Shown one piece after another: positions 17,885-23,728 of a DNA stretch of 32,448 nucleotides. Within the stretch, counting starts at the first letter, position 1. Every line of letters starts with the position of its first letter. Made by a program: the position numbers and the translations under genes. The notes beneath the pieces were generated by a model. It ran no database searches and was not told the origin of the DNA. It saw only the letters and a program-made list of their open reading frames with translations. The DNA is from a bacterium (GTDB lineage: Bacteria > ARS69), in the NCBI GenBank assembly GCA_025774805.1, contig JALGZR010000108.1:1-32448 (forward strand), written 5' to 3'.

Positions 17885-17937
17885 GAATGCGCGCGTGCAC
17901 GTTCCCCCCCCGTCCCTCTCACCTCGGGACACCACCG

Positions 17938-20910
17938 TTGCCCTCGCCCCTCGGCTCCTTCCTCCGCTCCCGGGTCCTGGCTCTCCTCCCGATCGTCCTG
18001 ATCGGGATCGCGACTCCGGTCGCGCCGGGCGGCCCGCCGCGGATCGCCCGGCTCCTCGACCCCGCCGACGTCCAGTGGACCGATCGACCCGGCGGTGAGT
18101 CGCCGCGGGAGGGGGAGAGGGTCTTCCTGCGGGGAATCGTCACCGCGGTCTCCCCGGACAGGCTCTTCTACTACGTCGGAACCGAGGGGGGAGGCCCTTG
18201 GAGCGGCCTCAAGATCGAGGGCTCCTGCCTCGACCGGGTCCGCGGAGAGATCGTCACCGTTTCGGGGGTCGTCCGCGAGACGTGGGGCGAGACGCGGCTG
18301 CAGCAGATGTCCGCGCGCCGCGTCGGTCCGGGGAAGATCCCCGCGCCGGCCGCGGTGGGCGTGATCGATCTCGTCGCCGACGGGGAGCGGTGGGAGGGAG
18401 TTCTCGTGCGCCTCACGGACGTCCTCGTGGAGGGGGAGACCCTGTCCTACGGCGAGTTCCTCGTCTCGGACGGCACGGGCACGGGGGGGCTCATCGACGA
18501 CGAGTTCATCACGTCCTACATCTCGGACCCGGGCGACACGTTTACCTCGATCACCGGCGTGGTCTCGTGGGGGTACGGCGACTTCCGCGTAGAGCCCCGC
18601 TCCGATGACGACCTCGAGGGCTGGGTGTCCGTCCGGGACTTCGACGCCGAGATCCGTTTCACGGTCCGCGACGAGACGGGGCGCGAGCTTCCGTGCAAGG
18701 TGACGTTCTTCCCCGTCGGGGGACCGCCCCTCGCGCTCGGACCCGACGATCGTGCGAGCGGATCGGAGGACGTGGCCTACCTTTCCCCGGAGAGGAGGAC
18801 CGTCCCTCTCCCCTCGGGCACGTACGATCTCGTGATCTCGCGCGGCATTGAGTACGGCCTGCACGAGGAGCGGGTAACGGTTCCCCCGGGGGGGTCCGTC
18901 GACGTGCACGCGGTGCTGCCCCGGGAGGTCGACTCCTCGGGGTGGATCTCGGGCGACTTCCACGTGCACTGCGCTCCGAGCACGGACTCTCCGGTTCCGG
19001 TTCCGGGACGGCTGGAGAGTCTGGCCGGAGAGGGCGTGGAGTGGGCGATCGCCACCGATCACAACCGGGTCACCGACTACCGGCCGGTGATCGAGGTGCT
19101 CGGCCTCGAGGACTGGATGCTCTCCTCGATCGGCGACGAGATCACCACGCGCAATCCCGAGTTCGGCCACTTCAACGCCTGGCCGCTCGAGATCGGGAGG
19201 ACGCCTCCGCCCTACGAGGGGCAGACGCCGGTCTCGCTGTTCTCGGGGGCTCGCGCGGACCCGGGCAACGAGGTCGTGCAGGTGAACCACCCCAGCATCC
19301 CCGCATGGGGAGACCAGTACTTCGACGTGTACGCGGTGAGCCGGTACACGGGGGAGCCGGCCGCTCCCGGCTTCTCCTTCGAATTCGACGCGCTCGAGAT
19401 CTTCAACGGCAGATACCTGGACCAGGGCCTCACGACCTTGGAAACGTGGATGCGCATGCTCAACAACGGGCGCCGGATCACCGCCACCGGGAACTCGGAC
19501 TCGCACCACCTCGTCTACGGCGAGCCGGGGTATCCGCGGAACTTCGTCGGCTCTCCGACCGACGCTCCGGGGGCGGCGAGCGAAGGAGAGCTGGTCCAGG
19601 CGGTGTTCGACGGCCGGGTCTTCGTCTCCTACGGGCCCTTCCTCGACTTCGCCGTCAACGGTGCCGGACTGGGTGAGACCGTGGGAACGGTCGACGGGGA
19701 GGCGGAGCTGACACTCCGGGTCCAGTGCCCGTCCTGGTTCGCCGTGGATCGGGGGACGATCTGGGCGAACGGGTTCGAGCTCGCCGGGTTCGCCCTCGAC
19801 GCGATCGAGGGAGAGCCGCAGGACGTCCTCGTGACGCGGATCGATCGTCCCGGGGTCGACACCTGGTACCTCGCGCTCGTCGAGGGAAGCGTGGACCTCG
19901 CCCCGGTCCCGCTCGCCCTCACGAACCCGATCTGGGTGGATGCGGACGGCAACGGCGTGTTCGACCCGCCGGGGAACCACCCCGACGCGACGACCGTCTC
20001 CGCGATCGAGGGCGTGGACGAGCAGGGCGTGGTCGTGCGGATCGCGGATTGGGTCTCGGCGGAAGGGTGTGCGACGACCGATGCGCCGTTCCCGGATCCC
20101 GCGGCGGGAGGATTCTACGTGGACGACGGAACCGGCGGGGTGCGGATCCGGGAGACTCCCGGCACGGTGACCGAGGTCCGGAGGGGAGACCGCGTGCGGG
20201 CGACCGGTTTCGTCGACCAGCTTCTCGGCGAGACCCTGGTCACCGGCGCGACGGTGGAGATTCTGGGAACGGCGGACGACTGCCCCCTCCCGATTCCTCT
20301 GGCGACCGGGGACCTCGGGTCCGGGGTCGAGCCTCTCGAGGGGCGGCTGGTGCGGATCACGGGGGCAAACGTGACCGGAGGCAGCTGGCCCCGCAACGGA
20401 GCGGAAGGGACGGTCACGCTCGACGACGGGTCCGGGCCCGCGACGCTCTACGTTCCGCGGGGAGTCGAGGTCCCGCCCGAGGCCGACGACCTCGTCGACT
20501 TCTCCCTGACGGCGCTCGTCTTCCAGTACGACTTCTCACCCCCTTACCACTCCGGATACCTCCTGATGCTCCGCGCCGGCGGGGATCTCTTTCCTCCGGG
20601 GGCGCTCCCCGGTCCCGAGGCGGTCCCGATCGGCTCGGGGATCGTCTTCGGCGTGGCCCGTCCGAACCCGTTCGGTCTCGCGGTGAAAATCCCCTACGTC
20701 GCGGGCCCGGAAGCGGCGCTCCCCACCGCCGACGTGCTGAACGTCGCGGGGCGGGTCGTGCGGAGAGTCCGCGGAAGCTCCCCCGGTCGGGGAGAGATCC
20801 GATGGGACGGACGCGACTCGCGCGGCCGGGAGACCGCCGCCGGGCTCTACTTCCTCCGCCTGGATTCCGGGAGCGGGGGGCGTGTCTTCCGAATCGTTAA
20901 GTTGCGCTGA
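17938..20910 (+). CDS. Large secreted PHP-domain (CehA-like) metallohydrolase with OB-like modules and a FlgD/T9SS-like tail
   Basis: The frame is open from ATG 17887. I prefer TTG 17938, because it sits after the candidate promoter and gives a clean signal peptide (SRVLALLPIVLIGIATPVAPG). In order: an OB-like module of the DUF5689/YhcR type (FLRGIVTAVSPDRLFYYVG), a linker with an Ig-like part, and the PHP domain. The PHP domain has metal-site residues HVH in GDFHVHCAPSTDSPVP (near residue 342), IATDHNRVTDY, VQVNHPSIPAWG, LEIFNG and GNSDSHH. A second OB-like module follows (DGTGGVRIRETPGTVTEVRRG). The C-terminus RPNPFG, then GRDSRGRETAAGLYFLRL, is a FlgD-Ig-like domain typical of secreted FCB-group proteins. 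It is probably an extracellular phosphoesterase or related hydrolase. The substrate is not predictable. Confidence 0.88.
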   Translation: MPSPLGSFLRSRVLALLPIVLIGIATPVAPGGPPRIARLLDPADVQWTDRPGGESPREGERVFLRGIVTAVSPDRLFYYVGTEGGGPWSGLKIEGSCLDRVRGEIVTVSGVVRETWGETRLQQMSARRVGPGKIPAPAAVGVIDLVADGERWEGVLVRLTDVLVEGETLSYGEFLVSDGTGTGGLIDDEFITSYISDPGDTFTSITGVVSWGYGDFRVEPRSDDDLEGWVSVRDFDAEIRFTVRDETGRELPCKVTFFPVGGPPLALGPDDRASGSEDVAYLSPERRTVPLPSGTYDLVISRGIEYGLHEERVTVPPGGSVDVHAVLPREVDSSGWISGDFHVHCAPSTDSPVPVPGRLESLAGEGVEWAIATDHNRVTDYRPVIEVLGLEDWMLSSIGDEITTRNPEFGHFNAWPLEIGRTPPPYEGQTPVSLFSGARADPGNEVVQVNHPSIPAWGDQYFDVYAVSRYTGEPAAPGFSFEFDALEIFNGRYLDQGLTTLETWMRMLNNGRRITATGNSDSHHLVYGEPGYPRNFVGSPTDAPGAASEGELVQAVFDGRVFVSYGPFLDFAVNGAGLGETVGTVDGEAELTLRVQCPSWFAVDRGTIWANGFELAGFALDAIEGEPQDVLVTRIDRPGVDTWYLALVEGSVDLAPVPLALTNPIWVDADGNGVFDPPGNHPDATTVSAIEGVDEQGVVVRIADWVSAEGCATTDAPFPDPAAGGFYVDDGTGGVRIRETPGTVTEVRRGDRVRATGFVDQLLGETLVTGATVEILGTADDCPLPIPLATGDLGSGVEPLEGRLVRITGANVTGGSWPRNGAEGTVTLDDGSGPATLYVPRGVEVPPEADDLVDFSLTALVFQYDFSPPYHSGYLLMLRAGGDLFPPGALPGPEAVPIGSGIVFGVARPNPFGLAVKIPYVAGPEAALPTADVLNVAGRVVRRVRGSSPGRGEIRWDGRDSRGRETAAGLYFLRLDSGSGGRVFRIVKLR

Positions 20911-20981: not shown

Positions 20982-21094
20982 TAGGATTGTCCGGACGTTA
21001 TCGATGCGGTACTTCGTGACGCCGGAGGGCACGAGTGTCCGGGAGCTCCCGAGAGTGCGGGAGCGCCGGAGAACGGGCGACGGAGGAGAGGTCC

Positions 21095-21991
21095 ATGCGG
21101 CTCGGCGACTACACGCTGCGCGAGTGCCTGCCGATCGCGGGCGGCGGCATCGACGCCCTCGCCGACGACCCCCTCACGGGACGGGAGATCCGGCTCTGGA
21201 TCGGCGCGCCGGGGTCCGGCGCCGCCCGGGCGGAACTCGGTTCCGTCGAGGAGCTCGCGCAGACCCTCGCCCGCGTATACCACGCGTCCCTGCCCCGCGT
21301 CCTCGGGGCGGGGATCGTGGAGGACCGGGCCTTCCTCAAGGTCCAGGCCTACCGGGGCATTCTCCTCTCGGATCGGCCCCCGACCGAGGCGCCCGACGTA
21401 CCGGCCTCTCTGGACCTCGTCCGCGGGATCGGAGCGGGTCTCGTCAAGGCCCACCGGGCGGGGGTGATCCACGGGGCCGTGAGCGAGGCGGAGATCCTCG
21501 TCGCGGACGACGGACCGACTCTCCTGCTCCATCTCGGATTCGGTCCGTTCCTGGGGGCGAGGCCACCCCGGTCCCCCGAGGATCTCGACTCGCCGGGGGG
21601 CTCGGAGGACTCGGACGTCTTCGGCCTGGCGCGCGTGCTCGTCCGTCTCGCCACCGGGGAGGACCCGTTCGCCGGCGGGCGCCCGGAGGACGAGGAGAGG
21701 CTTCTCCGCGCCGGAGTTCGGCGCGAGCCCGAAGATTTCCCCTCCGAGCTGCCCGAGGGGCTCCGGAGGTTTCTGCACCGAGCCGTGCACTTCGACCGGA
21801 GCCGCCGCATCCACCGGGCCGAAGAGCTGGTCGGCGACCTGGGGGTGATCCGGGCGTCGTGGGACGCCCTCTCGGCCGTCGGCGAGACGCCTCTCCCGTT
21901 CTTCCCCTGGCTCCTTCGGCGGCGGGTGCTGATTCCCCTGGCTCTCGGGCTCGTCGCGGCGATCGTCGCGATCCTTCGTTCCTGTCGCTAG
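21095..21991 (+). CDS. Membrane-anchored pseudokinase (Ser/Thr kinase-like fold without catalytic residues)
   Basis: GGAGGAGAGG just upstream fixes ATG 21095; the product has 298 aa. The layout follows a bacterial Ser/Thr kinase: a glycine-rich N-lobe start (PIAGGGIDALADDPLTGREI), then VKAHRAGVIHGAVSEAEILV, a magnesium-loop position, DSDVFGLARVLVRLATGEDPF (helix F/G region), and a last hydrophobic helix near residues 275-293 followed by RSCR. All three catalytic residues are gone. The VAIK lysine position is IRLW, the HRD loop reads HGA (residues 126-128), and DFG reads GFG (148-150). It should not phosphorylate. It may bind nucleotide or act as a scaffold at the inner membrane. It lies just upstream of the histone-fold gene. 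Confidence 0.78.
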   Translation: MRLGDYTLRECLPIAGGGIDALADDPLTGREIRLWIGAPGSGAARAELGSVEELAQTLARVYHASLPRVLGAGIVEDRAFLKVQAYRGILLSDRPPTEAPDVPASLDLVRGIGAGLVKAHRAGVIHGAVSEAEILVADDGPTLLLHLGFGPFLGARPPRSPEDLDSPGGSEDSDVFGLARVLVRLATGEDPFAGGRPEDEERLLRAGVRREPEDFPSELPEGLRRFLHRAVHFDRSRRIHRAEELVGDLGVIRASWDALSAVGETPLPFFPWLLRRRVLIPLALGLVAAIVAILRSCR

Positions 21992-22057: not shown

Positions 22058-22087
22058 TTGACGCCCGGTCAGAGGGCGCCCCATGAT
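22058..22087 (+). promoter_or_regulatory. Candidate promoter for the histone-fold gene
   Basis: TTGACG (5/6) and CATGAT (4/6) are separated by 18 nt. The -10 ends 74 nt before GTG 22162. It suggests the histone can be transcribed independently of the pseudokinase. Confidence 0.4.
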
Positions 22088-22161
22088 GCATGCCTCGGAA
22101 GGCTCTGTATGGGCCTCCGTTTCGCCAACGCCTCGTGAGGGCCCGTTCGAGGAGGAATCCC

Positions 22162-22338
22162 GTGGCCGACATTCTGGTCGTTCAGTCGAAGATCCGCGAT
22201 ATGATCAAGGCAGAAGGTTGCTCCACCAGTTCAGGCGCGATCGAGGCGCTCTCCGATGAGGTCTCGCGACTCGTCAAGCGCGCGATCGAGAGAACGAAGG
22301 GGAACGGCCGGAAGACCGTCAAGGGAAACGATATCTGA
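22162..22338 (+). CDS. Small bacterial histone-fold protein
   Basis: GGAGGAA at 22151-22157 sets the start at GTG 22162 and gives a 58-aa basic protein. The pattern is that of a single histone fold: ILVVQSKIRDMIKAEG (helix 1), CSTSSGAIEALSDEVSRLVK (loop 1 and long helix 2), and NGRKTVKGNDI (loop 2 with the RKTV motif shared by histones). It closely resembles, in order and motif, the Bdellovibrio histone HBb, which also starts with a LVV.SK block and carries GRKTV. Here the chain ends at the point where helix 3 would begin, so helix 3 is nearly absent. I expect a DNA-binding dimer acting on the nucleoid. The frame stays open upstream to 22090 but has no ribosome site there. Confidence 0.85.
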   Translation: MADILVVQSKIRDMIKAEGCSTSSGAIEALSDEVSRLVKRAIERTKGNGRKTVKGNDI

Positions 22339-22438: not shown

Positions 22439-23479
22439 CTAGCCGGTCGCTCGGGTCGTGTGGAGCTGGCCGCACGCGGCCGAGATGTCGGGCCCCATGC
22501 TCCAGCGTACGGTCACGACGGGAGCCTGGGGCCAGACCCGGCGGGCGAAGGTGTCGACCCGCTCCCGGTCGGGCGCGTCGAGGCCCGTTCCGGCCCCCGG
22601 GTTGTACGGGATGATGTTGATCTTGAACGGCCCGCCCCGGAGCATGCGTCCCAGCCGGCGCGCGTCCTCCTCGGTGTCGTTGATCCGCCTCAGAAGGACG
22701 TACTCGATCGTGACCCGGGAGCCGTACCGCTCCGCATAGCCCCGGGCCGCCGCCAGCAGCTCCCGGAGCGGGGTCCGGGCCGCCTTCGGCATCAGCCTCG
22801 CCCGGACCTCTTCGGTGGTGGCGTTGAGCGAGAGGGCGAGGCGCACGCCGAGCCCCGTGTCGGCGAGCCTCCGGATGCCGGACAGGACCCCTGCCGTCGA
22901 GACCGTGATCCGGTTTCCGCTCAGGTTCAGCGCGAGGGGGTCCATCATCGTGCGACAGGCGGTCACCAGGGCCGGGAGGTTGTGCAGCGGCTCTCCCATG
23001 CCCATGAACACGAGGTTCGTGCGCAACCGGAGGTCCCGAATCCGCGTCCACAGGGGTAGGATCTGCCCCACGATCTCGTGGGGCTCGAGATTCCGGCGGA
23101 ATCCCATCCGGCCGGTCTGGCAGAAGATGCAGTCGAGCGTGCAACCGACCTGCGTCGAGAGGCAGAGCGTCATGCGACGTTCCGCGGGCATCAGAACGGA
23201 CTCGACCGCCTCTCCGTCCGAGAGCCGGAAGAGGAACTTCCGGGTGCCGTCGATCCGGCTGATCCGCTCCTCCTCGATCGTCAGTCCCCGGATCTCGAAC
23301 TCCGACCCCAGCTCCTCCCGCAGGGAGAGGGAGAGGTCTGTCATCCGGGCGAGAGACTCGACACCCTTGTCGTAGAGCCACCGGGCGATCTGGCGGTAGC
23401 GGTACTCCGGGAGCCCCCGGTCGGTGATCAGATCCCGGAGCTCGGGCAGGGTCAGCCGCCGGAGGTCCTTCTTCTCCAT
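22439..23479 (-). CDS. rlmN: Dual-specificity RNA methyltransferase RlmN (23S rRNA A2503 / tRNA A37)
   Basis: This radical-SAM enzyme forms 2-methyladenosine in 23S rRNA and some tRNAs. The 346-aa product starts at ATG 23479 (MEKKDLRRLTLPEL) with GGAGAG upstream; the frame stays open further upstream but that part reads as low-complexity. The iron-sulfur motif CTLDCIFC (CxxxCxxC) is intact. It is preceded by LCLSTQVG and followed by TGRMGFRRNL. Also present are the SAM-contact GMGEPLHN, STAGVLSGIRRLA, LSLNATTEEVR and IIPYNPGAG. The methyl-transfer cysteine is in the C-terminal DISAACGQL. All expected catalytic residues are visible. It is convergent with the histone gene. Confidence 0.97.
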   Translation of the reverse strand: MEKKDLRRLTLPELRDLITDRGLPEYRYRQIARWLYDKGVESLARMTDLSLSLREELGSEFEIRGLTIEEERISRIDGTRKFLFRLSDGEAVESVLMPAERRMTLCLSTQVGCTLDCIFCQTGRMGFRRNLEPHEIVGQILPLWTRIRDLRLRTNLVFMGMGEPLHNLPALVTACRTMMDPLALNLSGNRITVSTAGVLSGIRRLADTGLGVRLALSLNATTEEVRARLMPKAARTPLRELLAAARGYAERYGSRVTIEYVLLRRINDTEEDARRLGRMLRGGPFKINIIPYNPGAGTGLDAPDRERVDTFARRVWPQAPVVTVRWSMGPDISAACGQLHTTRATG

Positions 23480-23728
23480 CTTCCACTCTCCTGGCGGTTG
23501 CGCGGGGGAAGAGCCGATCCTATGCTCGCCCCGAAGGGTCGCCAGCGTATCGAAGGGCGAAGTGAAAGCCAACCCACGGCCCGGAGGCCCCGGTCCCACG
23601 GCCGCGGCCCCACGGACACGGGCGGTGCGGCCCGGGCTCCACGTTCGGCCCGTTCGGCCCGCCCCGGGCTCAGCCGTGGGACCCACGCCGGCACGGTCCA
23701 CTGGCGGCCCGCAGGCGGGAGGCCCGGC

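Follow-up and report, generated by a model that had tools for sequence, protein, structure and literature searches.

The window analysed here, a 32,448-nucleotide stretch of bacterial DNA, carries on its forward strand a gene of 58 codons (22162–22338), whose product is VADILVVQSKIRDMIKAEGCSTSSGAIEALSDEVSRLVKRAIERTKGNGRKTVKGNDI*, with the initiator GTG read as M. From sequence matches, an AlphaFold2 monomer and signature residues we annotated it as an alpha3-truncated histone gene, probably of the face-to-face (FtF) type. A Shine-Dalgarno sequence, AGGAGG (22150–22157, forward strand), is located just 5′ of the GTG, and AGGAG-type sites are found at a roughly equal position 5′ of the histone gene in its relatives. 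Further upstream, a motif scan identified a promoter-like site on the same strand, TTGACG-18-CATGAT (22058–22087), with one site found against 0.1 expected in shuffled sequences. The GTTGAC and CAT-AT core of this site is invariant across four genera, one relative having a one-base gap between the two elements. An earlier note on this DNA had given the coordinates, frame and sequence of the 58-aa ORF as described here and had assigned it a promoter-like site of its own; the first observation holds and the second is supported. An upstream ATG at 22090, which would yield an 82-aa product, was rejected because both the Shine-Dalgarno sequence and the conservation of the start point to 22162; this longer reading is also disfavoured by nearby upstream stops in two relatives (L002 and L004).

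Three further genera of the family have these 58 codons with an identical end, at 69–79% identity. Differences between the homologous genes are weighted to the third codon position (for example 10/4/32 and 12/10/27 at first, second and third positions, respectively), and the usable NG86 dN/dS values are 0.14–0.23, saturated comparisons having been left out so that only codon-position counts and usable NG86 values were considered. A chance ORF was rejected on three grounds, namely full-length matches in the PDB, conserved relatives and the codon-position pattern. The histone gene is real, conserved and under purifying selection.

The gene located 5′ of the histone (21035–21991, forward strand) encodes a kinase-like protein with a hydrophobic C-terminal segment. 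Its match to PF00069 is weak (E 2e-4), relatives of this protein giving E values of 7e-6 and 9e-7, and on reading the sequence we observed that HGAV replaces HRD and LGF replaces DFG. The pseudokinase gene that had previously been noticed beside the histone is consistent with this weak match and these replaced motifs. The hydrophobic segment is likely a tail anchor, and the protein is possibly a tail-anchored pseudokinase. On the other side, a convergent gene (22439–23506, reverse strand) encodes RlmN, a 23S rRNA/tRNA adenine methyltransferase, with Radical_SAM and RlmN_N matches. The order of kinase-like gene, histone and convergent RlmN-like gene is the same in three relatives (L004, L011 and L012, RlmN being recognised there by sequence). 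The recurrence of this order in three further genomes of the family makes a mis-binned contig unlikely. Upstream of the kinase-like gene, a 1007-aa protein (17887–20910) carries a C-terminal FlgD-Ig-like domain (PF13860, sub-threshold); by eye, the protein located upstream in L004 also seems to finish with a FlgD-like tail of this sort.

The family of the window is represented in the searched set by five genomes, which are all the genomes of its phylum there; among named relatives, the nearest is listed as ‘Gemmatimonadota bacterium DHS20C21’. We found the histone in four of the five. The fifth (G001) is only 67% complete and gave neither a histone nor an RlmN match, so that the absence of the histone there is uninformative. 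Searches of the window's genome with the window protein and with PF00808 detected no second histone. The gene is thus single copy and no histone partner is needed, which argues against the earlier guess that the protein might require one. All five genomes contain two or three HU-family matches each; the histone need not therefore be the main organiser and probably acts beside HU.

The HU-family genes, together with the adjacency of the kinase-like gene conserved in four genera, would also suit a local, regulatory DNA binder, tied for instance to the kinase-like membrane protein and not a general organiser. We consider this very unlikely. The conserved promoter-like site of the histone indicates that it and the kinase-like gene are probably transcribed separately, and homologues that have been characterised more fully bind DNA non-specifically and are abundant (PMC10627809, PMC12701072). 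Moreover, the neighbours are different in the next closest relative, a Deltaproteobacteria MAG (CG11_..._45_16; L013:1-4174): its histone, 66% identical to that of the window, comes after an FtsY-like gene (SRP54 domain), with an SMC-family gene further upstream.

In phmmer searches of the PDB, the window histone matched HBb of Bdellovibrio bacteriovorus over its full length (E = 2.7e-8), HLp of Leptospira perolatii over nearly its full length (E = 1.4e-7) and the archaeal FtF histone HTkC (E = 2.5e-4). Profile models, which the earlier note had proposed as a check, also matched, both below threshold: Pfam PF00808 with 17.8 bits for a cut-off of 21.4 (E 0.004) and NCBIfam archaea_histone with E 8.4e-5. 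Automatic annotation would therefore probably miss this protein. The AlphaFold2 monomer (pLDDT 92.5) displays a histone fold with helices at 8–17 and 24–47, the latter being the long central helix 2, while helix 3 is limited to a single three-residue helical turn (55–57). The histone fold first read from the letters alone, and its comparison with bacterial histones such as HBb, are thus borne out by full-length matches and by a confident model. Foldseek ranked HLp first (TM 0.90/0.93, 0.9 Å). With VIA-align, Z was 9.0 for HBb, 8.9–9.0 for HLp and 8.1 for the archaeal FtF histone HTkC, compared with at most 6.5 for nucleosomal and eukaryotic histones; the model superposed on HBb at 0.7 Å and on HLp at 0.9–1.0 Å. 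Since HBb and HLp are tied in Z, the monomer fold alone cannot separate tetramer and dimer modes, and the FtF assignment rests on the signature residues and the tree.

The near absence of helix 3 is not unusual. A short helix 3 gives the alpha3-truncated histone family its name (Schwab et al., PMC11390915) and is a hallmark of its published members: alpha3 is a single turn in HBb (PMC11317129, PMC10627809) as well as in HLp (PMC12701072). The description of a protein with almost no third helix was therefore accurate, the turn at 55–57 being all that remains of it, but the novelty attached to it was not. Within this family, the FtF type is recognised by R, N, R, T and D close to the end of the chain, the category being formally defined by a predicted torus-shaped homotetramer (PMC11390915). 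Residues of the dimer-dimer interface are R48 and N52 in the published profile, and R49 and N53 in HLp. Every published FtF sequence mark that we tested is present in the window histone, which carries R44, N48, R50, T52 and D57 and ends with I58. Three of these residues, R50, T52 and D57, constitute the RxTxxxxD loop 2 motif or RD clamp, which is kept in relatives, and all five are invariant in an alignment of 12 sequences (A4). The stop codon immediately follows I58 (D57+1) in the window and in the three sister genera.

We then compared 41 histone sequences for the R/N pair of the FtF interface and for the position of the chain end. The pair is present in 31; the chain ends at D+1 in 27 of these versus 1 of the 10 without the pair, a comparison that is no more than indicative since the rows are related. 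Five sequences (L010, L030, L031, L036 and L020) possess the R/N pair yet carry three or four extra C-terminal residues (CACA, ISM, FAS), which would move the carboxylate off the FtF interface. Nor is the signature absolute, because T61 and F63, interface residues of HLp, correspond to N56 and I58 here and HTkC assembles as a tetramer although it has E at the position of N48 (phmmer alignment).

As HBb is the best PDB sequence match, superposes at 0.7 Å and also has a one-turn alpha3, the window histone might instead be an HBb-like bacterial dimer that bends or coats DNA without wrapping it. We judge this improbable: HBb-type proteins do not have the R/N tetramer pair (PMC11390915), while R44 and N48 are both present here. 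In HBb and the other members of its clade, the R44 position is occupied by S, K, V, T, N or R and the N48 position by D or A, and the chains carry 1–6 extra C-terminal residues, of which the window histone has none. The tree points the same way. In this exploratory tree (42 sequences, 57 columns, backbone without resolution), HBb and eight relatives form a clade that is supported (100/97), although on a short alignment, and that leaves the window protein outside. HLp is found in a separate clade with L033 (100/82), and the window family groups with the Deltaproteobacteria MAG protein (98/98). Predicted histones of archaeal MAGs (L015–L018) are 50–54% identical to the window histone, and the tree does not decide on transfer between domains for the window family and these archaeal proteins.

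A profile built from 19 sequences gave a match in 36 of 386 bacterial genomes, a sample weighted by kinship and not a census. One genome (G033) carries two alpha3 histones, L005 without N48 and L010 with R/N and the CACA tail; two genomes of the same family (G180 and G315) have two profile matches each.

Taken together, the sequence, the model and the analogy with characterised proteins make it rather probable that the window encodes an FtF-type histone whose tetramer wraps about 60 bp and which organises the nucleoid beside HU. The earlier note had suggested that the protein may bind DNA without wrapping it. This is disfavoured, the FtF determinants absent from HBb being present and HLp, a bacterial FtF homotetramer (PDB 9QT0-9QT2), wrapping about 60 bp (PMC12701072). 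By analogy with HLp and the archaeal FtF histones, a homotetramer and wrapping are likely, and a dimer as building unit, high abundance and a similar role in the cell would be expected. Two chains would pair head to tail via the central helix (24–47), and two dimers would then associate through two separate interfaces, to which the C-terminal part of helix 2, loop 2 and the final residues contribute. In these contacts, N48 would face R50 of the other dimer, and R44 would pair with the free carboxylate that ends the chain at I58. The proposed R44-carboxylate and N48-R50 interfaces would account for a chain that stops at the expected start of a third helix. In the ring-like tetramer formed in this manner, DNA may be carried round the rim via S9, K10, R12, K16, T22, K51 and T52, with about 60 bp wrapped irrespective of sequence; the tetramer could thus serve as a nucleoid organiser beside HU.

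The window histone would thus belong to the known FtF kind, the new points being the lineage in which it occurs and its presence alongside HU. It adds to the holders of FtF histones a lineage that is not among the phyla named in the main texts of the papers cited here, in genomes where FtF histone and HU genes occur together. We suggest tentatively, and hold it somewhat less likely than not, that in this poorly sampled, HU-encoding bacterial lineage an FtF histone that lacks a tail and looks archaeal belongs to the regular gene complement and that, if it wraps DNA, wrapping and HU coexist there. The protein also offers a compact test case for the hypothesis of the C-terminal carboxylate, and not the missing helix, as the cause of tetramers in short histones.

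The archaeal nucleosomal histones HMfA and HMfB share with the window histone the histone fold and the RxTxxxxD loop motif, at a lower structural score (Z 6.1–6.3). In the HMf proteins alpha2 is longer and alpha3 comprises three turns, and these helices form a four-helix-bundle tetramer (PMC10627809), whereas alpha3 is one short turn here. HBb (Bd0055; PDB 8FVX, 8CMP, 9EZZ, 9F0E), a dimer that bends DNA (PMC11317129), has the same fold at 39–41% identity. Both proteins contain the S9-K10 motif, the RKTV loop, the RD clamp and the one-turn alpha3. In contrast, R44 and N48 are replaced by S and D in HBb, which also has five more C-terminal residues.

Among archaeal FtF members, D4GZE0 of H. volcanii carries R41, N45, R47, T49 and D54 and ends at 55 (PMC11390915), which is the spacing of the window histone (R44, N48, R50, T52 and D57, end at 58) shifted by three. 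Like the window histone, archaeal FtF members, which include the HTkC tetramer (PDB 9F2C), are devoid of an N-terminal tail; the host differs, being bacterial here.

The bacterial tetramer HLp is 37–38% identical to the window histone on superposition (0.9–1.0 Å), with a single-turn alpha3 in both. Residue 3 of the window model falls on residue 8 of HLp, such that R49, N53 and R55, the tetramer residues of HLp (PMC12701072), correspond to R44, N48 and R50; D62 has its equivalent in D57, and both chains end at D+1. Most DNA contact positions are retained or conservatively altered: S14, K15, K21, T27 and T57 of HLp are S9, K10, K16, T22 and T52 in the window histone, and K17 is changed to R12. 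The N terminus is five residues shorter than that of HLp. The loci are also different, Leptospira hlp being reported to adjoin smc (PMC12701072) whereas we identified no SMC gene beside the histone at the window locus. Finally, Leptospira is reported to have no HU-family genes and its histone to stand in for HU (PMC12701072), whereas HU-family genes are present in the window host. If the window histone wraps DNA, nucleosome-like wrapping and HU would operate side by side in this lineage, unlike in Leptospira.
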